Positions 3,499 through 42,300 of a DNA stretch of 64,000 nucleotides are shown here, piece after piece. How positions within the stretch are numbered: position 1 is the stretch's first letter; each line of letters begins with the position of its first letter. The notes beneath the pieces are model-generated. The model saw nothing but the letters and a program-made list of their open reading frames with translations. It had not been told where the DNA came from and ran no database searches. Position numbers and translations under genes: made by a program. The DNA comes from Nocardia sp. NBC_00403 (lineage in GTDB: Bacteria > Actinomycetota > Actinomycetes > Mycobacteriales > Mycobacteriaceae), in contig NZ_CP107939.1 in assembly GCF_036046055.1 (NCBI RefSeq), positions 7,812,001 to 7,876,000 of the forward strand, read 5' to 3'.

Positions 3499-4284
3499 GT
3501 GCCCCACGCCAAGTCCACCGATGGCGTTCGCATCGCCTACCAAACACAAGGCGACGGCGCCCCACTGATCCTGCTTGCCGGACAGGCGAACAACCACCAT
3601 TGGTGGGACGGCGTTCGCGACGACTTCCACGCCCGCCACCAGACGATCACCTTCGACTATCGCGGCACCGGCGACAGCGACAAGCCCGATACGCCATACA
3701 GCACAACAGGATTCGCCGACGACGCCATCGCCGTCCTCGACGATCTCGGCATCGACAGCGCCGACGTGTACGGCACCTCGATGGGCGGCCGAGTCGCGCA
3801 ATGGCTGGCCGCCCGCCATCCGGATCGGGTGCGCGCCCTCGTACTCGGCTGCACCACACCGGGAGGACGGCACGCCATCGAACGCGACAACGAGGTCCGC
3901 CGCTCGCTGGCCGATCCCGATCCGGCGGCCGCCCGAGCGGCGCTGCTGGAATTGATGTACACCCCGACCTATTCGGCGACCACACCCGGACCGTTCAACA
4001 CCCTGGGCGACCCGACCATGCCTGCCTACGCTCGACGACGACATCTCCTCGCGAGCGCCAGGCACGACGCGTGGGATGCCCTGCCCGACATCGGCGTTCC
4101 CACGTTGGTCGTGCACGGCACCGACGACCGTTTCAATCCGGCAGCGAACGCAGCATTGCTCGCCGATCGCATCCCCGGAGCTCAGCTGCGGCTGATCCCG
4201 GGTGCCAGACACGCGTACTTCGACGAGTTCCGCACCACCGCAGGCCCGCTGGTCTCGGATTTCCTGAATTCGGTTCGACCGTAG
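3499..4284 (+). CDS. alpha/beta-fold hydrolase
   Basis: A 261-residue protein. The start is taken as GTG 3499 because GGAAGGAACCACT precedes it directly and the earlier open frame overlaps the TetR gene. It carries the nucleophile elbow YGTSMGGRVAQW (about residue 95), a GTDDRFNP acid region and a GARHAYFDEF histidine near the C-terminus, giving the Ser-Asp-His triad, plus an oxyanion-type LLAGQANN segment. The FDYRGTGDSDKP motif is typical of the BphD/esterase/haloperoxidase branch. It probably forms an operon with the TetR gene. The substrate cannot be deduced; a small ester or carbon-carbon hydrolase is possible. Confidence 0.85.
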   Translation: MPHAKSTDGVRIAYQTQGDGAPLILLAGQANNHHWWDGVRDDFHARHQTITFDYRGTGDSDKPDTPYSTTGFADDAIAVLDDLGIDSADVYGTSMGGRVAQWLAARHPDRVRALVLGCTTPGGRHAIERDNEVRRSLADPDPAAARAALLELMYTPTYSATTPGPFNTLGDPTMPAYARRRHLLASARHDAWDALPDIGVPTLVVHGTDDRFNPAANAALLADRIPGAQLRLIPGARHAYFDEFRTTAGPLVSDFLNSVRP

Positions 4285-4357
4285 AACCGGGAACGGCGTA
4301 AACCGGACGGCCCGAACAATCACCGCTCACCCCGCGGACGCATGCAAGACTGGGGCC

Positions 4358-5491
4358 GTGAGCGAGCTGAACGAAGGCAAATCGACGCCCGACCGCGGCG
4401 ATGTCATCGGCACCGGAGTGCTGTGGCTCGCCAAGTGGGCGGTGTGCATCGTCGCGATCGCGGCGGGCACCTGGGTAATCGGCTTCGTCCTCGCGAAGCT
4501 GTGGGTGGCGGTGCTGCCGGTCCTGCTCGCGATCGTCGTCACCACCGTGTTGTGGCCGCCGACGCGGTGGCTCACGCAGCACGGCCTGCGCCCGGCCGCG
4601 GCGGCCGCGGTCACCCTGGTCGGTTTCCTCGGACTGCTCGCCGGGATTGTGGCACTGATCGTGCCCTCGGTCGTCGATCAGGCCCCTGAGCTCGCCGACA
4701 AGTCGACAGCAGGCGTCAATAAAGTGCGCGACTGGCTGCAGGGTCCGCCGCTGAGAATCCAGCAGGAACAACTCGATTCCGGGGTCGACGCGATCGTGCA
4801 ACGGCTGCAGTCCAGCACCGAGCGGATCGCGACCGGTGTTTTCAGCGGGGTGAGCGCCGCGACGTCGGCGATCGTCACACTGGTCCTGGTGCTCACGCTG
4901 TCGTTCTTCTTCATCAAGGACGGGCCGCGCTTCATGCCTTGGCTACACAACACGCTCGGCAGCCGCACCGGCCGCCACCTAGAGGAGGTGCTGAGTCGAA
5001 TCTGGGTCACCCTAGGCGGTTTCATCCGCACCCAAGCGCTTGTCAGCTTGATCGATGCGATATTCATCGGTGCCGGGTTGGTGATACTCGGTGTGCCGCT
5101 TGCTCTTGTCCTGGCCGTGATCACGTTCATCGGTGGCTTCATCCCGATCGTCGGCGCCTTCGTCGCCGGTGCGCTCGCGGTGCTGGTTGCGTTGGTAGCC
5201 AACGGTTTGACCACGGCGCTGATCGTGCTCGGCATCATCATCGCGGTGCAGCAGCTCGAGGGCAATGTGCTGCAGCCGGTGCTCCAGAGCCGCAGCATGA
5301 AGCTGCACGCCGTCCTCGTGCTGTTGGCCATCACCGCAGGTGGATCGCTGTACGGCATCGTCGGAGCCTTCCTCGCGGTCCCCTTCGCAGCGGTCGTCGC
5401 CGTGACGATCCGCTACATCGGCGAGCAGATCGATGCGGCCACCACCCCACCACCCGAAGTCGGCGAGGAACTCGAACCCACCGCCGAATAG
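4358..5491 (+). CDS. AI-2E family transporter (PerM/YdiK-like permease)
   Basis: A 377-residue integral membrane protein starting at GTG 4358. Two hydrophobic segments lie near residues 20-75 and one near 80-105, then comes a soluble region (about 105-155) with amphipathic helices (DKSTAGVNKVRDWLQGPP). Further membrane segments follow, including the family motifs FIKDGPRFMPWL and FIGGFIPIVGAFVAG and the C-terminal VQQLEGNVLQPVLQSRSMKLH. These last motifs define the AI-2E/PerM family. Members have been linked to export of small signals or to Na+/H+ antiport, but most are uncharacterised. It stands alone; the next gene is convergent, 19 bp away. Confidence 0.88.
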   Translation: MSELNEGKSTPDRGDVIGTGVLWLAKWAVCIVAIAAGTWVIGFVLAKLWVAVLPVLLAIVVTTVLWPPTRWLTQHGLRPAAAAAVTLVGFLGLLAGIVALIVPSVVDQAPELADKSTAGVNKVRDWLQGPPLRIQQEQLDSGVDAIVQRLQSSTERIATGVFSGVSAATSAIVTLVLVLTLSFFFIKDGPRFMPWLHNTLGSRTGRHLEEVLSRIWVTLGGFIRTQALVSLIDAIFIGAGLVILGVPLALVLAVITFIGGFIPIVGAFVAGALAVLVALVANGLTTALIVLGIIIAVQQLEGNVLQPVLQSRSMKLHAVLVLLAITAGGSLYGIVGAFLAVPFAAVVAVTIRYIGEQIDAATTPPPEVGEELEPTAE

Positions 5492-5510
5492 CGGCTACCG
5501 AACGGACGAT

Positions 5511-6089
5511 TCACTGCGCCTCTTCGGCGCTGCGGCGAGCGCGGTGCGCGCGGACCCGACCACGGCTCGCACACGCGGGCGACGGACACCAGCGACGCCG
5601 GCCGTCCGGATCGATGAACACGCCGCGGCAATCGTGTTCCGGACAGCTGTTCAGCAATGCCCGGTCCGCACCGGTCAACTGGTCTGCGGCCTGGCGGGCG
5701 ATGCGGGCAAGGGCATCGGTCACCGTCGCGGGCGGCTCACGGCGCAACCGGTGGCCCGAGATCAACTGGACCGGGCGGTCGTGCTCGGCCAAGAAGGTGG
5801 ACAGCTCCGCGACAGCCGACGCAGGGGCCGGCTGCTGGTCGACGGTGGCCAATGCCAAGGTGCGCAGCGTCTCTCGCAGCTGCCAGGCCAGGTCCAAATC
5901 GTGCTGATCCGGAGTCCGGGCCGAGGCAAGGTCGCACAACTCCAGCCACTCGGCAAGCCGGTCCGGGGTCGCGATCCGCTCGACCGGACCAGCACTGAAC
6001 GTACGACCCTTCGTGGCGAGCAGGTTCAACCAGGTCGCGCCACAGTCGAAGCGAAAGGCGAACTTGTCCTCTTTGGTCACGACATGCAT
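5511..6089 (-). CDS. CGNR zinc-finger / ABATE domain protein, probable local regulator
   Basis: A 192-residue protein starting at ATG 6089. The N-terminal two thirds (about residues 8-140, FAFRFDCGATWLNLLATKG onward) match the ABATE domain, proposed to be a stress-ligand sensor. The C-terminus has the CGNR-type zinc knuckle: NSCPEHDCRGVF, then RRWCPSPACASRGRVRAHRAR, with four cysteines and a basic tail for DNA binding. It is divergent from the 6171 operon, and two identical palindromes lie in the 81-bp gap, one almost touching its own start codon. Autorepression and control of the neighbour operon are the simplest reading. Confidence 0.85.
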   Translation of the reverse strand: MHVVTKEDKFAFRFDCGATWLNLLATKGRTFSAGPVERIATPDRLAEWLELCDLASARTPDQHDLDLAWQLRETLRTLALATVDQQPAPASAVAELSTFLAEHDRPVQLISGHRLRREPPATVTDALARIARQAADQLTGADRALLNSCPEHDCRGVFIDPDGRRRWCPSPACASRGRVRAHRARRSAEEAQ

Positions 6090-34703: not shown

Positions 34704-36098
34704 GTGATGATGAGCACTCGAGACAGCGCAACGACGCGACGTCCAGACACGTCCGCTGTTGGCCTGAACCATCCCAAGCGGGACTGGATGGGCACGGCCA
34801 TGCGGATCATGACGACCTTCACCGGGTCGGAGCTCGCCGAGAAGTACAACCTGCGCAAGCCGATCGAGCGAGTCACCTATGAAGGCACCAAGACCGGCTT
34901 CCGCACCCTCGGCGCGGCCACCCGCGCGTTCGCCAAGGTCGCGGGCAACGGCACACCGAAGCGGCTGGCGGACAACGAGTCGAAGAACAAGGATTTCTTC
35001 GACCTCACCCCCAGCGACGAGCAGCAGATGATCGTCGAGACGGTGAAGGAATTCGCCGCCGAGATCCTGCGCCCGGCCGCCTACGAAGCCGACGGCGCCG
35101 CGAAGGCCCCGCGCGACCTGCTCGAGCGGGCCGCCGAACTCGGCATCACCCTCATCAACGTGCCCGAGGAGCTCGAGGGCGCGGCCGCCGAGCGTGGCGC
35201 GGTCACCAACTCGCTGGTCGCCGAGGCTCTCGCGCACGGTGACATGGGCCTCGCCCTGCCGATCCTCGCGCCGAGCGGTGTCGCGGTTGCCCTCTCCCAG
35301 TGGGGCACCGACGCTCAGCAGCAGACCTACCTGCCCGCCTTCACCGGCGAGAACGTTCCGCAGGCCGCCGTCGTGATCAGCGAGCCGCGGGCCCTGTTCG
35401 ATCCGTTCGCATTGCAGACCAAGGCGACTCGCTCCCCCAGCGGCTACCGCCTCAACGGTGTGAAGAGCCTGGTGCCCGCCGCCGCGGATGCCGAGCTGTT
35501 CCTCGTCGCCGCTGAGCTGGACGGTCGGCCCGCCCTGTTCATCGTGCCGTCCGACACCCAGGGCCTGGTCGTCGAGGCCGACCCGAGCATGGGTCTGCGT
35601 GCCGCGGGCCTCGGCCGCCTGATCCTCGACAATGTCGCGGTCGGCACCGACGCCATCCTCGGCGACAGCGATGCCGTTCAGCGCGCCGAAGAGTACGCGG
35701 ACGCAGTACGTCTCGCCCGCCTCGGCTGGGCCTCGCTGGCCATCGGCACCGGCCAGGCGGTGCTGGACTACGTGATTCCGTACGTGAACGAGCGTGAGGC
35801 GTTCGGCGAGCCGATCAGCCACCGCCAGGCGGTCGCCTTCATGGTCGCCAACATCGCCATCGAACTCGACGGCCTTCGGCTCGTGACCCTGCGGGGTGCG
35901 TCACGCGCGGAGCAGGGCCTGTCGTTCGCGCGCGAAGCGGCGCTGGCGAGAAAGCTGGCCACCGACAAGGGCATGCAGATCGGTCTCGATGGCGTGCAGC
36001 TGCTCGGTGGCCACGGCTTCACGAAGGAACACCCGGTCGAGCGCTGGTACCGCGATCTGCGGGCCATCGGCGTCGCCGAAGGTGTCGTGCTCATCTAA
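34704..36098 (+). CDS. fadE24: acyl-CoA dehydrogenase subunit, FadE24-like
   Basis: A 464-residue protein. GTG 34704 is followed by ATG at 34707 and 34710, and any of the three may be used. It has the acyl-CoA dehydrogenase layout, with DLTPSDEQQMIVETVKEFAAEILRPAAYEAD, GDMGLALPILAPSGVAVALSQWG and GVQLLGGHGFTKEHPVERWYRDLRAIGVAEGVVLI. The C-terminal segment lacks the catalytic glutamate motif E-G-T, which its downstream partner keeps. That matches the non-catalytic subunit of heterotetrameric mycobacterial FadE pairs. It forms an operon with fadE23, 34 bp downstream, behind tandem palindromes. Confidence 0.85.
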   Translation: MMMSTRDSATTRRPDTSAVGLNHPKRDWMGTAMRIMTTFTGSELAEKYNLRKPIERVTYEGTKTGFRTLGAATRAFAKVAGNGTPKRLADNESKNKDFFDLTPSDEQQMIVETVKEFAAEILRPAAYEADGAAKAPRDLLERAAELGITLINVPEELEGAAAERGAVTNSLVAEALAHGDMGLALPILAPSGVAVALSQWGTDAQQQTYLPAFTGENVPQAAVVISEPRALFDPFALQTKATRSPSGYRLNGVKSLVPAAADAELFLVAAELDGRPALFIVPSDTQGLVVEADPSMGLRAAGLGRLILDNVAVGTDAILGDSDAVQRAEEYADAVRLARLGWASLAIGTGQAVLDYVIPYVNEREAFGEPISHRQAVAFMVANIAIELDGLRLVTLRGASRAEQGLSFAREAALARKLATDKGMQIGLDGVQLLGGHGFTKEHPVERWYRDLRAIGVAEGVVLI

Positions 36099-36132: not shown

Positions 36133-37362
36133 ATGATCAATCTCGAACTCCCCAAGAAGCTGCGGGCCAGCGCCAACCAGGCCCACCAGGTCGCCTCGGA
36201 AATCTTCCGTCCGATCTCGCGCAAGTACGACCTCGGCGAACACGACTACCCGGTCGAGCTGGACGCCATGGCCGCCATGGTCGAGGGCCTTGCCGACTCC
36301 GGCACCCAGAAGATCGGCGGCGCGGCCGGTGGCCGTTCGCATGACAGCGAGTCCGACAGCCACGCCACCGAGTTGCTCGGAAACAGCAACGGCGGCAATA
36401 TGTCCGCACTGCTGAACGCCCTGGAGACCTCCTGGGGCGACGTCGGCCTCATGCTCTCGATCCCTTACCAGGGTCTGGGAAACGCAGCCATCGCGGCCGT
36501 CGCCACCGACGAGCAGCTGAAGCGTTTCGGCAAAGTGTGGGCCTCGATGGCCATTACCGAGCCGTCTTTCGGCTCGGACTCGGCCGCCGTCACCACCACC
36601 GCCGTTCTCGACGGCGACGAGTGGGTTCTCAACGGCGAGAAGATTTTCGTGACCGCGGGCCAGCGCTCCACCCACATCGTGGTGTGGGCGTCGGTCGACC
36701 GTAGCCTCGGCCGCGCCGCGATCAAGTCGTTCGTCGTGCCGCGTGAGGCCCCCGGCCTTTCGGTGGCCAGGCTCGAGCACAAGCTCGGCATCAAGGCGTC
36801 CGACACCGCCGTGCTCCTGCTACAGGACTGCCGGATTCCGAAGGACAACATCCTCGGCAGCCCGGAAGTCAACGTGGAGAAGGGCTTTGCCGGGGTCATG
36901 CAGACCTTCGACAACACCCGCCCGCTCGTTGCCGCCATGGCCGTCGGTGTCGCCCGCGCCGCCCTCGAGGAGCTGCGCGCGATCCTGACCGATGCCGGTG
37001 TCGAGATCTCCTACGACACCCCGGCCAACAATCAGCACGCCGCAGCCGCCGAATTCCTGCGCATGGAAGCCGATTATGAGTCCGCCTACCTGTTGTCGCT
37101 GCGCGCCGCGTGGATGGCCGACAACAAGAAGCCGAACTCCCTGGAAGCCTCCATGTCCAAGGCCAAAGCGGGCCGTACCGGCACCGACGTGACCTTGAAG
37201 GCCGTCGAACTCGCAGGCGCCATCGGCTACTCCCAGCGCACCCTGCTCGAAAAGTGGGGCCGCGACTCGAAGATCCTGGATATCTTCGAAGGCACCCAGC
37301 AGATCCAGCAGCTCATCGTGGCGCGCCGGGTCCTCGGCAAGACCAGCGCCGAGCTGAAATAG
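36133..37362 (+). CDS. fadE23: acyl-CoA dehydrogenase subunit, FadE23-like
   Basis: A 409-residue protein from ATG 36133 after AGGAGACATTCC. EPSFGSDSAAVTTTAVLDGDEWVLNGEKIFVTAGQRSTHIVVWASV is the FAD/substrate region, and SKILDIFEGTQQIQQLIVARRVL carries the catalytic glutamate (FEGT). Together with the FadE24-like protein it should oxidise an acyl-CoA to the trans-2-enoyl-CoA in beta-oxidation, with FAD shared between subunits. It ends at a 13-bp-arm terminator. Copies of its 3' end recur at 39260 and 40195. Confidence 0.88.
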   Translation: MINLELPKKLRASANQAHQVASEIFRPISRKYDLGEHDYPVELDAMAAMVEGLADSGTQKIGGAAGGRSHDSESDSHATELLGNSNGGNMSALLNALETSWGDVGLMLSIPYQGLGNAAIAAVATDEQLKRFGKVWASMAITEPSFGSDSAAVTTTAVLDGDEWVLNGEKIFVTAGQRSTHIVVWASVDRSLGRAAIKSFVVPREAPGLSVARLEHKLGIKASDTAVLLLQDCRIPKDNILGSPEVNVEKGFAGVMQTFDNTRPLVAAMAVGVARAALEELRAILTDAGVEISYDTPANNQHAAAAEFLRMEADYESAYLLSLRAAWMADNKKPNSLEASMSKAKAGRTGTDVTLKAVELAGAIGYSQRTLLEKWGRDSKILDIFEGTQQIQQLIVARRVLGKTSAELK

Positions 37363-37374
37363 CAAGTCGCACAG

Positions 37375-37420
37375 CAGAAAACCGGTGTCGGTCCACTGTG
37401 GGGCAGGCACCGGTTTTCTG
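37375..37420 (+). terminator. terminator after fadE23
   Basis: Perfect 13-bp arms (CAGAAAACCGGTG / CACCGGTTTTCTG) with a 20-nt loop, 12 bp after the stop. The right arm contains TTTT. A decayed copy of the same hairpin lies at 40302-40339. Confidence 0.75.
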
Positions 37421-37535
37421 TCTGGCGACGTCGGTCACCGGCGAACTGTGACGTCGGTCGACGGGATCCGAGATCGGTTACGAGGCGCAGGTCTCTGCGC
37501 CGCGACCGGTGGACCACGCCGCGATGGACGGCAGA

Positions 37536-38966
37536 TCACCGTCCGCCGGGTGTCGCGGCACATGTTCCGGTCGCGGGCACACCGCGCAATCGTTGATCAA
37601 GCCAATCCATGGTCGCGCCATAGGAGCTGACATAGGCTGCCAGATGTTCACCGCCGACGATATTCTTCGTCGCCGCCACCCCCAGAGCACATTGCTCGCG
37701 CCACAACTGCTCGGCCTCCGGCACGGGAATCCAAGGATCGTTGATACCGTGGTAAATGAACAGCGGCACTCCCGATTTCCGGCCGTTCATACTCAGATGT
37801 TGGAAGATAGCCTCGGCCGATTCGCTGTCGAGCGCCTTATCGATTGTGGCCATCGTGTCGATCGGGATGGGCATTATCCCGAGTGCACCGAAACTACCGC
37901 TGCAGATATCTTTGATGGGGGACGTCGCCACCCATTGCGCCGCATGGTTCATGAGGCCGAGGATTTCTGGGTGCTCCCTGCCGAGCGCGAGCACGGTGGT
38001 GAGCAGGAACGCGGAGATGTAGGAACCATCGAAGGCGTGGGCGAACCGGCGATAGTCGGTGACCAATCCGCCGAAACTCGCGCCGGCGAAATACGGGAGC
38101 AGTTCCGGTGCGTATTCCTGTACCAGCATGGCCGCGGCATGGGAAGCGACGGCACCGCCGGAGTAACCGGTCGAGGCGAAACGGCTCTCGCCGAACTGAT
38201 CCGGGGCGAAATTGCGGACCGCGCGGATGGAGTCGAGCAGGTTGTATCCGGCCACGGCCGGCTCCGAGTAGGCCATCAGGGGGCCCTCGTGGTCGGGGAT
38301 AATCAGCGCGTAGCCGTGCTCGATCGCCCAGGCGGTCGGCGACGGTGTGAAATCGTTGCCGGTCGGGACTTCCATGCCGTGGGAGAGCACGTAACCGGGG
38401 GTGCAGCGCTTGTTGAGCGCGTTGATGGCTTGCGCGTTCACCAAGACGGGCTGGTTGCCGGGCCCGGTCCACGCCTTGGGGGGAAGGACCAGCGTCGCGG
38501 TGCCGATGGAGGGCTCACCGGCGGAGTTGGTGGTGCGGAATTTCAGGAGAGTGGCGTGGGAAATGGCGGTGAGGTTCAGGAGAAGCATCGTCGGCGTGGC
38601 CGACGCCGTCACATCCCGCCATTCCAGAATGTCGCCGGGCGCATAACGGGCGAGATCCGCCGGCCAGGTGTCGAACAGTGGGTCACCGGTCGGCGCGGAC
38701 TGCACAGCATCCCAAAGCGCGATCAGTTCCTGCGGCAGATCACTCGGCGCCGCAAGGGGCCGCGACGCTCGCGGTAGCATCTTCATCGGCGCGGGAAGAT
38801 GGGAATCGATCCACTGCTGCAGCGGGTTCGGACCCTCCTGTACACCAACGGACGGGTCAACCGACACCGAAGATTCCGGCGGATCCGCCTCCGCCCGGAC
38901 AGGTATCTGCCCCATTGTGATCGAAAGACCCAGGACCATCATGGCCGCAGTCAACAGATGCTTCAC
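37536..38966 (-). CDS. secreted lipase (Lipase_LIP family)
   Basis: A 476-residue protein from GTG 38966. The N-terminus KHLLTAAMMVLGLSITMGQIPVRAEA is a Sec signal peptide. The mature part has YAPGDILEWRDVTA, LLKFRTTNSAGEPSIGTATLVLP, the nucleophile elbow FASTGYSGGAVASHAAAML (Ser of GYSGG), the acid region VPLFIYHGINDPWIPV and the late histidine VGGEHLAAYVSSYGA. This is the LIP family of secreted triacylglycerol lipases. It lies between fadE23 and a copied fadE23 3' end (39260-39309), so it may be part of an inserted cassette. Confidence 0.88.
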   Translation of the reverse strand: MKHLLTAAMMVLGLSITMGQIPVRAEADPPESSVSVDPSVGVQEGPNPLQQWIDSHLPAPMKMLPRASRPLAAPSDLPQELIALWDAVQSAPTGDPLFDTWPADLARYAPGDILEWRDVTASATPTMLLLNLTAISHATLLKFRTTNSAGEPSIGTATLVLPPKAWTGPGNQPVLVNAQAINALNKRCTPGYVLSHGMEVPTGNDFTPSPTAWAIEHGYALIIPDHEGPLMAYSEPAVAGYNLLDSIRAVRNFAPDQFGESRFASTGYSGGAVASHAAAMLVQEYAPELLPYFAGASFGGLVTDYRRFAHAFDGSYISAFLLTTVLALGREHPEILGLMNHAAQWVATSPIKDICSGSFGALGIMPIPIDTMATIDKALDSESAEAIFQHLSMNGRKSGVPLFIYHGINDPWIPVPEAEQLWREQCALGVAATKNIVGGEHLAAYVSSYGATMDWLDQRLRGVPATGTCAATPGGR

Positions 38967-39259
38967 GATTCATCAAGTTACGACATGAAAGCGCGCAAAC
39001 GGGGGATTTAAGAGCCCGTTCATTCATGAACTTGTGATAATCGGCTACTACTAGTGAGAACGCGCAGAATGCGCCATTACCGTGCGTTCGGATGGCCCTG
39101 CAACGCCTCGACCCATGCGTATCGACAGTTGTTGCCGAATTCCGCCGAGGCCGTGCGAGGCCCAGCAGCGGCCGGAACGGGCGAGAACTACAAAGAACCC
39201 TTCGCACAGCTCAACGCGCATTTTCGCAATCTTTCACCAGGACAACGCAATTCGCCTGG

Positions 39260-39309
39260 AAGGTCCTGGATATCTTCGAAGGCACCCAGCAGATCCAGGA
39301 GCTCATCGT
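39260..39309 (+). repeat. 50-bp copy of the fadE23 3' end (scar 1)
   Basis: It matches fadE23 positions 37270-37319 with two mismatches in 50, including the codons of LDIFEGTQQIQ. The frame ends in TGA straight after, and nothing upstream resembles the rest of fadE23. Confidence 0.8.
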
Positions 39310-39610
39310 CTGACAGCACAGATGGGAGCGGGAATCGCCCAGTCGGTGACCGAGTTGCCGAATATCCTTGTTGGCGTACACATGTTGGTCGCTGCGCTGG
39401 TGTTCATCGGGGCAATCCCGGTGTTCCTTGAAACTTCTCCGAACTCTCAACCCGGCAGCCGACACACCACCGAGCGCCACCTGTGACGCTGCGCTCTCGG
39501 CGTGACAGCCTCGGATCATCTCCGACCTCCGCAAGCGCGGCACCGGATTCCACTTCCGATCCCCGCACGAACCTTCGGCAGCACTCGGCACGGTCGAAAC
39601 AGAGGTTAGA

Positions 39611-39688
39611 GGCGGTCAGAATTCGGGGACTCGAACCCCGAACCCGCTGATTAAAAGTCAGCTGCCGACCGCACACCTTGTGACCGCC
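39611..39688 (-). pseudogene. damaged tRNA-Lys(UUU)-like sequence
   Basis: On the minus strand GCTGA-CTTTTAA-TCAGC is a tRNA-Lys anticodon arm (anticodon UUU) and CGGGG-TTCGAGT-CCCCG a perfect T arm. The outer ends GGCGGTCA and TGACCGCC pair over 8 bp. The D arm has lost about five bases (GTCGGCAGC in place of GTCGGTAGAGCAGC) and five or six extra bases separate the T arm from the acceptor. It is therefore probably a non-functional tRNA or a tRNA 3' end left by an integration event. Confidence 0.6.
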
Positions 39689-39790
39689 GAAGTGGTTGGT
39701 ATGCGGGTCTTATCGGCGGCCAGAACGCGGATTCGTCCGAGAACCTCGTTGCCTGTATCGAACGGTGACCAGGTACGGTGTGAGATCGAG

Positions 39791-39817
39791 AGGTCCGCTC
39801 AGGTGAGTCGCGGACCT
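39791..39817 (+). promoter_or_regulatory. hairpin in the leader of the 39844 gene
   Basis: A perfect 8-bp stem AGGTCCGC / GCGGACCT with an 11-nt loop and a following TTCTGTTGG, ending 27 bp upstream of the start codon. It may be an attenuator, an upstream terminator or an operator. Confidence 0.4.
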
Positions 39818-39843
39818 TCTGTTGGAAGCTACTCGAGGACGTC

Positions 39844-40161
39844 ATGATCAAGCTCTTCTCCGCTGTTCTGCTGACCGCGACGGCGGCCGCCGCCCTACAG
39901 GTCCTGCCCGCCGCGCCCGCACATGCGAAGTCCCCCAGCTGCGCCAAAGCCATCGAGCTGATCAACGCCGCGATTGCCATCAGCGGCGACACCCTGGACG
40001 ATGCCACCCAGCAAGCTTTGTCCGACAGGCTGTCGGGCCTGGCCGCCCTGGCCGTTGGCGAAGAAAAGGCTGCTATCACCGGCTATGCCAACGCCTTGGT
40101 CGATGACAACATCACCGACCTGGACCCCGCCACGAACGAACTCAACCGCGTCTGCGCCTGA
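39844..40161 (+). CDS. small secreted protein (105 aa)
   Basis: It starts at ATG 39844 with GAGGACGTC in front. Residues 1-28 are a signal peptide (KLFSAVLLTATAAAALQVLP, cleavage after PAHA). The mature 77 residues are helical and acidic (CAKAIELINAAIAISGDTLDD, AVGEEKAAITGYANALVDDN) with one cysteine near each end, probably joined by a disulfide. I do not recognise a family. It lies between two copied fadE23 3' ends, so it may be cargo of an inserted unit. Confidence 0.75.
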   Translation: MIKLFSAVLLTATAAAALQVLPAAPAHAKSPSCAKAIELINAAIAISGDTLDDATQQALSDRLSGLAALAVGEEKAAITGYANALVDDNITDLDPATNELNRVCA

Positions 40162-40194
40162 ACCGTCGGGGCATTGCGGCCTGAAACCTGCTGC

Positions 40195-40339
40195 AAGATC
40201 CTCGACATCTTCGAAGACACCCGAGCAGATCCAGCAGCTCATCGTGGCGCACCGGGTCCTCGGCAAACCAGCGCCGAGCTGAAGTAGTAAGTGCCGCAAC
40301 CGAAACCGGTGCGGGTCGACAATGACTCGCACCGGTTTC
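40195..40339 (+). repeat. 145-bp copy of the fadE23 3' end and its terminator (scar 2)
   Basis: 40195-40290 matches fadE23 from 37270 with about eight differences, among them a one-base insertion and a one-base deletion that break the frame. The copy goes on through the stop codon into a version of the fadE23 terminator (arms GAAACCGGTGCG and CGCACCGGTTTC). So the copied unit includes the gene end and its hairpin. Confidence 0.85.
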
Positions 40340-40380
40340 TATTGTGCGCCAACGCACGGTGGCGAGCGCCGGGTGTCGCG

Positions 40381-40619
40381 CTAGTCGAAGATCACCAGAT
40401 CTGGGACGACGGCACCGCCGAAACTTCCGGATGCGCCCGGGTATACCACCAGCTGGGAGCCCGCGCGGCCGGCTGCACTGCCCAGCGTCGCGCTGGCGTT
40501 CGTTTGAGTGAGCACGTGCATGCCCCACCGACAAGCATGAACCTTTCGCCACTCGGCGGATCGCAGAGGGTGAAGTCGTCACCTGACGCATTGACGTAGC
40601 TGAAATCGCCTGTAGCCAT
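40381..40619 (-). pseudogene. small protein gene with a frameshift at a G run
   Basis: ATG 40619 has GGGAGTTCC upstream. The first frame reads ATGDFSYVNASGDDFTLC and then DPPSGERFMLVGG. Shifting one frame at GGTGGGG gives HVLTQTNASATLGSAAG and SQLVVYPGASGSFGGAVV followed by PDLVIFD and a stop at 40381. Both parts have matching composition, so one gene of about 79 residues was intact until a one-base change, or a sequencing error in the G run. The product looks like a small beta-rich protein; the family is unknown. Confidence 0.6.
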
Positions 40620-40759
40620 GGAACTCCCGTACTACCGCGCCAATGCATGCGCGGACGAAAGACCTCAGCTTTCGACGATCCCCACTCCCGCGACAGCCGA
40701 ATTCTTCCGGATTTTCCGAGGGACATGCCCACCCGGTGCGGCCGTTCGACAGCGCAATC

Positions 40760-40800
40760 CGTTACGTTGCTGCACACGCACGGGTTTGACTAACGTAACG
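40760..40800. promoter_or_regulatory. spaced inverted repeat CGTTACGTT / AACGTAACG
   Basis: Perfect 9-bp arms with a 23-bp spacer, ending 75 bp upstream of the secreted-protein gene at 40876. It is a candidate regulatory site around its promoter. Confidence 0.5.
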
Positions 40801-40875
40801 CTGCGTGTTGAGTCCGAAGAATTCAGCGGACGAATTTCCACCGAGCTGTACCAAGACCCCTCAAGGAGACTGGTT

Positions 40876-41511
40876 ATGCAAAAGTTGGGTTTGATACGTC
40901 GCTTCACCGCCGCACTCGCGGCAACGACCGCAGTCGCTGTCGTATTCGCAGGGCAGGCCGCCGCCGATCCGGTGCAGGTCGACTGGAATACGGCGGTTCA
41001 GAAACTGCGTTCCGCGGCCGCGGGCGATCCGGCGGCCGAGCAGGCCGTGGATCGGCTGATGGCCTCCGGCGGCCAGGTCACCACTGCCGAGCAGGTGGCA
41101 TTGCCCGCACAGCCGTTCCAGATGCCGGCGCAATCCGATATCGGCCGTGGTGGCGGCCCCGGCGCATACGGCACCGGCCTCGCGCTCGGCATCGACGGAT
41201 TCCGGCTCGGATTCTTCGGCGGCCCAGGCATGATCGCGCCGGACCAGAGCGGAGCCAGGCTCCAGGCGACCTGGGTCAACCTGTCCAATGGCCGTAGCGG
41301 CACCGAGTTGCTCACCGAGCACAACAATGCCCCCGTGGACACCACCATTCGCACCCGAGCCATCAACACCGGCGGCGGCATGATCGTGGCCGCGGTGTAC
41401 GGAACCCTGTGGCACCGCTGGCCGGTCCCGGTCAGCGAGGCGAACCCCGACGGATACCAGTACCAGCTCGGCACTATCTCCACGCCATCCTTCGGCGCCG
41501 TCTACAACTGA
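40876..41511 (+). CDS. secreted protein of unknown function (211 aa)
   Basis: It starts at ATG 40876 with AAGGAG upstream. Residues 1-31 form a signal peptide (LIRRFTAALAATTAVAVVFAG, cleavage at QAAADP). A helical stretch follows (VDWNTAVQKLRSAAAGDPAAEQAVDRLM), then a glycine-rich beta part (RGGGPGAYGTGLALGIDGF, LGFFGGPGMIAPDQSGARLQATWVNLSNGRSG, INTGGGMIVAAVYGTLWHRWPVPVSE). No catalytic motif or anchor is seen. A strong terminator follows at 41529. It may be an extracellular or cell-surface protein. Confidence 0.8.
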   Translation: MQKLGLIRRFTAALAATTAVAVVFAGQAAADPVQVDWNTAVQKLRSAAAGDPAAEQAVDRLMASGGQVTTAEQVALPAQPFQMPAQSDIGRGGGPGAYGTGLALGIDGFRLGFFGGPGMIAPDQSGARLQATWVNLSNGRSGTELLTEHNNAPVDTTIRTRAINTGGGMIVAAVYGTLWHRWPVPVSEANPDGYQYQLGTISTPSFGAVYN

Positions 41512-41528
41512 GCGTCCCAACCCACACT

Positions 41529-41571
41529 CGAGAGCCGATGCGAGTCCGTCCTGGACTCGTATCGGCTCTCG
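41529..41571 (+). terminator. long-stem terminator
   Basis: A 19-bp stem with a single G-U pair and a GTCCT loop, 17 bp after the stop of the secreted-protein gene. The left arm begins CGAGAGCCGATG. Confidence 0.8.
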
Positions 41572-41628
41572 CCTGTTACAACCTGCCGAAACACACGGCC
41601 AGGGCGCAGAGGTGTCCTCTTGTCCGGC

Positions 41629-41646
41629 ATTACGTAGTTCCGTAAT
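41629..41646. promoter_or_regulatory. palindrome ATTACG-N6-CGTAAT, probable autoregulatory operator
   Basis: Perfect 6-bp arms that end eight bases before the GTG of the winged-helix regulator at 41655. The position would block its translation or transcription start. Confidence 0.65.
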
Positions 41647-41654
41647 TTTGGGGC

Positions 41655-42152
41655 GTGGGTCTAGAGGAACGGGTTGCGGAGCTGGAGCGACGGCTCAGCG
41701 CGTTGGAGGCAGGCGGCAGCCGGGGCGCGGACGCATCGTCGGATAAGTGGGCGGTGCAACGGCTGCAGGAGGATTTCTCCGACGCCGACGAGCCCAACGG
41801 CGGGGTGTTGTTCGCCGGGTCGGTGCGGCTACCTACCGATGAGCATTACGGGTGGCAGGCACGGTTTACCACCGGTGAGATCATCGAGGACGACTGGTCC
41901 GAGGCAGCCGAATGTCTGGCCGCCCTCGGCAGTCCGGTACGACTGCGGCTGCTGCGTGAGGTGATGGGTGGCCGCAGGACCGCGGCCGAACTCGTCGGGC
42001 TCGAAGGGGTCGGAACCTCTGGTCAGGTGTATCACCATCTGCGGCAGTTGGCCGCCGTCGGCTGGCTACACACCGCCGGCCGTGGGAGTTTCGAAGTGCC
42101 GGAGGGCCGGGTCGTACCGCTGCTGGTCGCGCTGGCCAGCGCGCGGCGCTGA
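41655..42152 (+). CDS. ArsR-like winged-helix regulator with N-terminal coiled coil
   Basis: A 165-residue protein from GTG 41655. Residues 3-20 (LEERVAELERRLSALEAG) form a short coiled coil. The C-terminal 85 residues (AAECLAALGSPVRLRLLREVMGGRRTAAELV, SGQVYHHLRQLAAVGWLHTAGRGSFEVPEGRVVPLLVAL) are an ArsR-type winged helix. The middle GGVLFAGSVRLPTDEHYGWQARFT segment may be a ligand part. A palindrome just before its start suggests autorepression. The effector is unknown. Confidence 0.8.
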   Translation: MGLEERVAELERRLSALEAGGSRGADASSDKWAVQRLQEDFSDADEPNGGVLFAGSVRLPTDEHYGWQARFTTGEIIEDDWSEAAECLAALGSPVRLRLLREVMGGRRTAAELVGLEGVGTSGQVYHHLRQLAAVGWLHTAGRGSFEVPEGRVVPLLVALASARR

Positions 42153-42300
42153 CGCGTTCCGCGATCAAATCACTTACGGGATAAGAGAAGTCGCGGCCGG
42201 CAACACCACGCTTTCTGCTGCCGGACATCGGACCGCGCCCGGACTGCGCTTCGGGTTGCCGATGCGGATCCGACCACACACGAGTCGGCGCCGGCCGCCG

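Follow-up and report, generated by a model that had tools for sequence, protein, structure and literature searches.

Why does the last part of a single gene occur three times in close succession, with small genes set between the copies? This question is raised by a stretch of 64,000 nucleotides from Nocardia sp. NBC_00403 (contig NZ_CP107939.1, positions 7,812,001 to 7,876,000; hereafter the window, with positions counted from its first letter), in which the 3' end of a fadE23-like acyl-CoA dehydrogenase (ACAD) gene recurs twice behind the intact gene. An initial annotation had offered two accounts: elements that insert at the gene end and rebuild it each time, or serial tandem duplication followed by decay. 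Our results suggest that the fadE23-like 3' end very probably serves as the bacterial attachment site (attB) for one family of the actinomycete integrative and conjugative elements (AICEs), and that the window carries two decayed, accreted insertions that rebuilt the gene end.

The three copies lie where they had been annotated. Base-by-base comparison places the start of the repeated unit at the Lys codon at 37270 and the end of the middle copy at 39309, with 2 mismatches in 50 positions between 39260-39309 and 37270-37319; the third copy does extend through the stop codon and the terminator (40195-40345), in a decayed form with small indels. A search of the host's own genome (one contig of 8.7 Mb) with 37200-37440, in which 40 of 60 first-look candidates were scored, recovered the third copy at E=2.4e-35 and the middle copy at E=2.7e-17, values that argue against chance. 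Besides the gene and its copies, the sole further match was the terminator's own inverted repeat. No decayed full-length fadE paralogue, of the kind that the initial annotation had set against its own proposal, was found around the scars in this search.

Nor is this an old arrangement shared at fixed positions, as the region behind fadE23 differs between relatives in both occupancy and content. The fadE23 end (query 37240-37362) was found in 147 of 150 genus genomes and a second copy in at least 16 of the 150, the window genome included; this is a lower bound, the search having been repeated on the 51 genomes with at least two matches, with some of the candidates scored. The weak matches that remained in the repeat search fell on the conserved ACAD motif at other places or on further short stretches. 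In 14 of the 16 genomes (the window genome and, by our labels for genomes, G070, G147, G171, G119, G152, G115, G135, G112, G024, G009, G083, G156 and G123), the further copy lies downstream on the same contig and strand, 1.7-18.4 kb away; in G136 and G032 it is on another contig. Base-by-base comparison of 15 fadE23 pairs put the start of the distal copy at one and the same Lys codon in 13 of them. In G032 (loci L037 and L038), the contig with the far copy begins within the repeat and the fadE23 contig ends within the integrase; a further partial copy is present at L038 792-835.

In four relatives (G147, G152, G156 and G135), the 9.5-18.4 kb between the copies encode homologues of integrase, excisionase, Rep and Tra proteins. 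The G152 element (L047) has Pfam matches to Phage_integrase (PF00589), HTH_17, RepSA, FtsK_SpoIIIE, DUF2637 and GntR; its Rep matches PF20199 (RepSA) at E=1.2e-99, below the NCBIfam equivalog cut-off, and its transfer protein matches PF01580 at E=1.3e-11, below the NCBIfam TraB cut-off, with homologues of both in L044, L051 and L055. The integrase stop codon lies 93-94 bp behind that of fadE23, tail to tail, in L044, L051, L055 and L079. With an adjacent tyrosine integrase, a helix-turn-helix (HTH) excisionase, a RepSA-type Rep, an FtsK/SpoIIIE-type Tra and direct-repeat attachment (att) sites, the elements of these four relatives have the features by which AICEs are recognised and are, on their predicted gene content, near-complete AICEs. 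Pieces of an integrase stand at the same place, with other genes behind them, in G171, G119, G115, G112, G032, G070 and G024, and relatives as a rule carry accessory cargo between such repeats. The island at fadE23 in G024 (L035 2721-9818) encodes a second tyrosine integrase of 300 aa and a helicase protein (Mrr/ResIII, 1344 aa) that has ten helicase-associated domains and finds its best PADLOC match in a type IIG restriction enzyme.

The middle copy in the window appears to be the end of such an element. In a right-end profile made from the 40-bp stretches that precede 13 distal copies in other genomes, its 40-bp flank ranked top among 127,920 window positions on both strands (a 30-bp version gave one other window position with an equal score), and this rank, together with the similarity of 39148-39259 to the right end of the G070 element (Table 1), points to an element end. 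The untranslated regions (UTRs) behind the fadE23 stop codon indicate which gene end is foreign, as they sort into types. The proximal UTR of G070 matches the proximal UTR of G171 at 89% identity, whereas the distal UTR of G070 shares 86% with the UTR of single-copy G005 and just 59% with the proximal UTR of the same genome; the distal UTR of G171 is 79% identical to that of single-copy G082. This sorting indicates that, in G070 and G171, the element brought the proximal end and the native end was displaced to the distal position. The proximal UTR of the window is nearest to the proximal UTRs of G009 (84%) and G024 (80%), both of which have second copies. The proximal copy is read as attL-type because its start coincides with the left border of the distal copies of relatives and because an element-type UTR lies behind it. 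Serial tandem duplication of the fadE23 end with subsequent decay, and with genes moving in later, would likewise give three direct copies in one orientation, the outer two with a terminator. It would not give a sharp left border at one codon across genomes, element right-end DNA before the middle copy, proximal UTRs in G070 and G171 that do not belong to the lineage of the host, or integrases occupying the same site; we consider it highly improbable and reject it on the border, flank-profile and UTR comparisons.

Insertion with rebuilding of the gene end probably proceeds as follows. A tyrosine integrase would recombine attP of the element with attB, the exact crossover probably lying within the K-I-x-x-I-[FY] codons of the ACAD signature K-I-L-D-I-F-E-G-T. 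As the element would bring its own last 30 codons and stop codon, the gene would be rebuilt, and the native gene end would come to lie beyond the element. Accretion of two insertions at one site in the window, followed by decay, would have left the proximal copy as the element-borne end (attL), the middle copy as the right end of the first of the two elements (in a presumed order of arrival), and the third copy as the displaced native end. The whole is best read as two accreted, decayed insertions. The first account of the initial annotation is borne out to this extent by what comparison between genomes establishes: near-complete, integrase-bearing elements at the same site, a border shared at one codon, an element flank at the middle copy and replacement of the UTR in two relatives.

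Several observations weigh against this account. The window contains no integrase, rep or tra relic (the best E value in tblastn with 12 AICE proteins on the 64 kb was 0.29, in agreement with the earlier remark that no integrase is visible), and the class of its elements is deduced from neighbours. The left flank of the third copy fails the right-end profile, 29,575 of the 127,920 positions being as good, and was rejected as a candidate element end; the preference of the third-copy UTR is weak (74% and 73% to single-copy G068 and G080 vs 72% to others). Two of the 13 right ends (L055 and L057) fail the profile in leave-one-out, and two of the 15 distal copies lack the shared border (an indel shifts it in L055, and the L036 copy is truncated). 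Homologues of the lipase and of the small open reading frame (ORF) between the copies occur off fadE23 in relatives, so another route of arrival is possible. For the fadE23-site elements, excision, a circular form and conjugative transfer are predicted rather than observed. A genome-wide search for an integrase, which the initial annotation had suggested, brought no support, with no match in the host's own genome to the L047 integrase of G152 at E<=1e-40. As the window's own elements lack the int, rep and tra genes of an AICE, we regard it as a set of scars and do not file it as an AICE.

What the lost elements were can be answered in more than one way. The att site may be real and the window's elements may have been small integrase-bearing islands or satellites that shared the site and the tail; this is suggested by a window without an AICE gene and by G070, G171, G119 and G024, which hold integrase relics with non-AICE genes (and, in G024, that second integrase). 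However, the flank of the middle copy resembles the right ends of the G147 and G152 AICEs as well as those of small islands, and we consider that non-AICE islands are an unlikely source. A less doubtful proposal, although one we do not favour, is that the scars are those of AICEs, the lipase and the small ORF being host genes that ordinary recombination brought in later. Lipase homologues of 83-89% identity are found away from fadE23 in G027, G068 and G158, and 39740-40171, around the small ORF, is 93% identical to a stretch of G080 away from its fadE23. Against later entry, both intervals have a G+C content of 62.4%, below that of the flanks (65.6-65.7%) and of the window (65.4%), and accessory cargo is usual between such repeats in relatives. 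AICE insertions with the two genes as possible cargo remain our preferred reading.

The initial annotation had called an ACAD gene end an unusual site for integration, which is right but understated, as a clade of integrases uses ACAD ends. Integrase matches at E<=1e-40 were present in 23 genus genomes, 18 of them behind an ACAD gene: 10 behind fadE23, 7 behind a gene that we take to be fadE25-like and 1 behind a third ACAD. One more lies next to an ACAD tail fragment, and in the other 4 no ACAD motif was found. The fadE25-like sites lie near a purE-like gene where neighbours were read. Five of them have distal direct repeats of 58-85 bp with 94.6-100% identity, and four of the five have short inner repeats of 19-23 bp, which may be arm sites; the fadE25-like pairs begin at the same codon as fadE23 in 6 of 6 compared. 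A species-level scan of 84,980 genomes gave 245 confirmed integrase relatives, of which the best 80 were kept. Among these 80, relatives with at least 52% identity to the G152 integrase had an ACAD stop codon 22-96 bp from the integrase stop codon in 22 of 26 cases; in the others the distance was 509, 1046 or 1954 bp (L082, L101 and L083) or the contig ended (L102). For the 54 relatives below 52%, an ACAD was present at 48-114 bp in L103, L104 and L105 and at 1333 bp in L106, with none in the flank of the other 50. An order-level draw of 30 loci, from genomes partly shared with the species-level scan, gave an ACAD within about 100 bp in 5 of 8 loci at or above 52%, one at 1214 bp and two without an ACAD in 1.5 kb (L161 and L164), and an ACAD neighbour in 0 of 22 loci below 52%.

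A tree of 88 rows (one pair identical) placed the ACAD users and L102 in one group of 35, with an SH-like approximate likelihood ratio test (SH-aLRT) value of 81, and gave an inner group of 29 rows a value of 100. Only L073 among the ACAD-associated integrases fell outside the group of 35. These findings indicate that the integrase lineage as a whole uses the 3' ends of ACAD paralogues, which it appears to join at the same codons. The adjacency could in principle be a sampling effect of inheritance, a single old insertion having been kept by descent, and near-identical integrases do occur in related species (L084, L088, L096 and L098). This is very unlikely, since the target switches between fadE23, fadE25-like and other ACAD genes within the clade, with at least three changes for the fadE23 label (gains or losses both being possible), and since the long direct repeats at the five fadE25-like sites mark separate insertions in five genomes. 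Two other settings were considered for these integrases and rejected: tRNA genes as targets of sister integrases (ARAGORN found a tRNA near the integrase 3' end in 1 of the 80 loci, L153, and in none at ACAD sites) and a plasmid or phage home (the 18 plasmid and 695 phage records with a match all stay below 60% identity, the best listed plasmid place at 44%).

As identity starts at an AGAT-N7-ATCT inverted repeat in both paralogue groups, we propose as a hypothesis that this repeat is the core site. It occurs in the window at 37271 and 40196 only and is spelled by codons at 27 of 29 ACAD targets examined. In 1.44 Mb of fetched DNA, made up of selected and overlapping stretches, 114 of 125 such sites lie in an I-[FY]-E-G-[TA] coding context, although occurrence of the repeat is partly forced by amino acids and codon choice. 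We tentatively suggest, with somewhat less than even confidence, that this AICE integrase lineage is addressed to a protein motif: the K-I-x-x-I-[FY]-E-G-T codons, under high-G+C codon choice, would spell the core, two variable codons would form the overlap that sets the paralogue, and a few changes of att bases would move elements between ACAD genes, always rebuilding the last 30 or so codons.

AICEs, rebuilding of gene ends, accretion and decay are already known; the choice of ACAD gene ends as target appears to be new. As far as the available text of each source goes, the fadE23-site elements resemble pSAM2-like AICEs (PMC3218068) in an end-located tyrosine integrase, HTH excisionase, RepSA-type Rep, FtsK/SpoIIIE-type Tra and GntR, and ACAD-site elements share with AICEs their direct-repeat att sites, decay and tandem integration. 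According to that survey, AICEs with a tyrosine integrase insert at the 3' ends of tRNA genes in the vast majority of cases, the pSLS subfamily excepted (PMC3218068); ACAD-site elements differ from most in using an ACAD gene end, and agree with the pSLS integrases, on that text, in the non-tRNA site only. A population study of Streptomyces AICEs counted 36 tRNA, 14 protein-gene and 1 intergenic sites and described accretion at one site and remnants with a partial integrase and two direct repeats (PMC9513070), a form of decay that fits the window; it names rlmN as a protein-gene site, and in the text consulted, the supplementary table aside, no ACAD was seen. The integrase clade of the helper-embedded phage-inducible chromosomal islands (HE-PICIs) likewise prefers one class of protein-coding sites, but these are diverse prophage late genes rather than homologous codons of paralogous host genes (PMC10111431). 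Integration into an ACAD gene has been described at a phiC31 pseudo-attB site in S. rimosus (PMC7890619), where a serine integrase used a secondary site and the gene was disrupted, not rebuilt. The actinobacterial element PAISt (PMC4057263) also sits at the 3' end of a protein gene, but the gene is a different one (bacA) and the site has an 8-bp palindrome, and Mycobacterium abscessus prophages include a site seven codons from a stop codon (PMC8092301). We found no report of an AICE or tyrosine integrase at ACAD 3' ends in the open-licence literature, supplements aside.

Tyrosine integrases are known for tracking conserved tRNA genes; what this lineage appears to follow is a conserved protein signature, through the paralogues of an enzyme family, with the gene end rebuilt each time. 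If so, integration sites could be predicted from a protein motif; a new family of such sites (and possible tools) would be available for Amycolatopsis, Prauserella, Nocardia and related genera; and shifts of target between paralogues could be mapped, in a series provided by nature, onto changes in integrase and att site. Genes that follow fadE23 and fadE25-like genes in these genera are best regarded as possible insertion cargo, and the ends of ACAD enzymes as replaceable by DNA of foreign origin.

Table 1. Features of the fadE23-like locus, in window positions
Feature	Position	Strand	Basis or remark
fadE24-like ACAD gene, context	34776..36098	+	Upstream of fadE23-like gene; Pfam PF00441, PF02771, PF02770
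fadE23-like ACAD gene, target, intact, 409 aa	36133..37362	+	ORF; PF00441 E=1.5e-34, PF02770
Proximal copy, attL-type, from Lys codon of K-I-L-D-I-F-E-G-T to stop (30 codons + stop)	37270..37362	+	Probably element-borne
AGAT-N7-ATCT inverted repeat, proposed core (crossover) site	37271..37285		Also in third copy at 40196
Terminator-like repeat behind proximal copy, element-type UTR	37366..37429	+	Inverted repeat
Secretory lipase gene, interval 1, cargo or later arrival	37536..38966	-	PF03583 E=1.2e-34
Element right-end DNA in front of middle copy	39148..39259	+	71% to right end of G070 element
Middle copy, attR-type scar, ends after 50 bp	39260..39309	+	Base alignment; 93% over 39253-39309
tRNA-Lys fragment, 43 bp, anticodon arm to T arm, no gene	39623..39665	-	95% to own-genome tRNA-Lys(CTT) gene
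Small ORF, 105 aa, interval 2	39844..40161	+	Signal-peptide-like N-terminus (by eye)
Third copy, displaced native fadE23 3' end, decayed via small indels	40195..40287	+	E=2.4e-35
Terminator-like repeat behind third copy, probably native	40297..40344	+	Inverted repeat; UTR weakly nearest single-copy genomes
Native right flank	40820..42160		Similar to G082, G017, G008, G009 and G171, where it lies soon behind fadE23

The name fadE24-like for the upstream gene is our assumption from the mycobacterial fadE24-fadE23 pair. Among the genes between the copies, the annotated lipase was confirmed as a secretory lipase. The damaged tRNA-Lys of the initial annotation is derived from tRNA-Lys and is not a tRNA gene: ARAGORN called none at 39623-39665, and Rfam gave no RNA family there or elsewhere in 37200-41700 at E<=0.01. 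It may be what is left of the att site of another element, specific for tRNA-Lys, that was nested in the second interval. For the small secreted protein, an ORF with a signal-peptide-like start was found, with no match in Pfam, NCBIfam or PADLOC to assign it to a family. Outside the group of ACAD users, a 42%-identical integrase in G164 stands beside an ACAD tail (L073 4350-4454), possibly the scar of a fourth ACAD target; as tblastn shows a tail of about 35 residues only, with no gene body, we rejected it as a further ACAD site outside the clade and kept it apart. Where their neighbours were identified, sister integrases outside the group adjoin (at about 4250-5700 of their loci) the 3' ends of other conserved protein genes, namely those for a haemolysin-III family protein (L108, L112, L117 and L119), an aldehyde dehydrogenase (L110 and L113), methionine synthase (L126), NusG (L127), a dioxygenase (L111) and an MBOAT protein (L120). 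Finally, a stretch of 135 bp (39310-39444) begins exactly behind the middle copy and is 84% identical to a place off fadE23 in G092 (L196 3392-3526).

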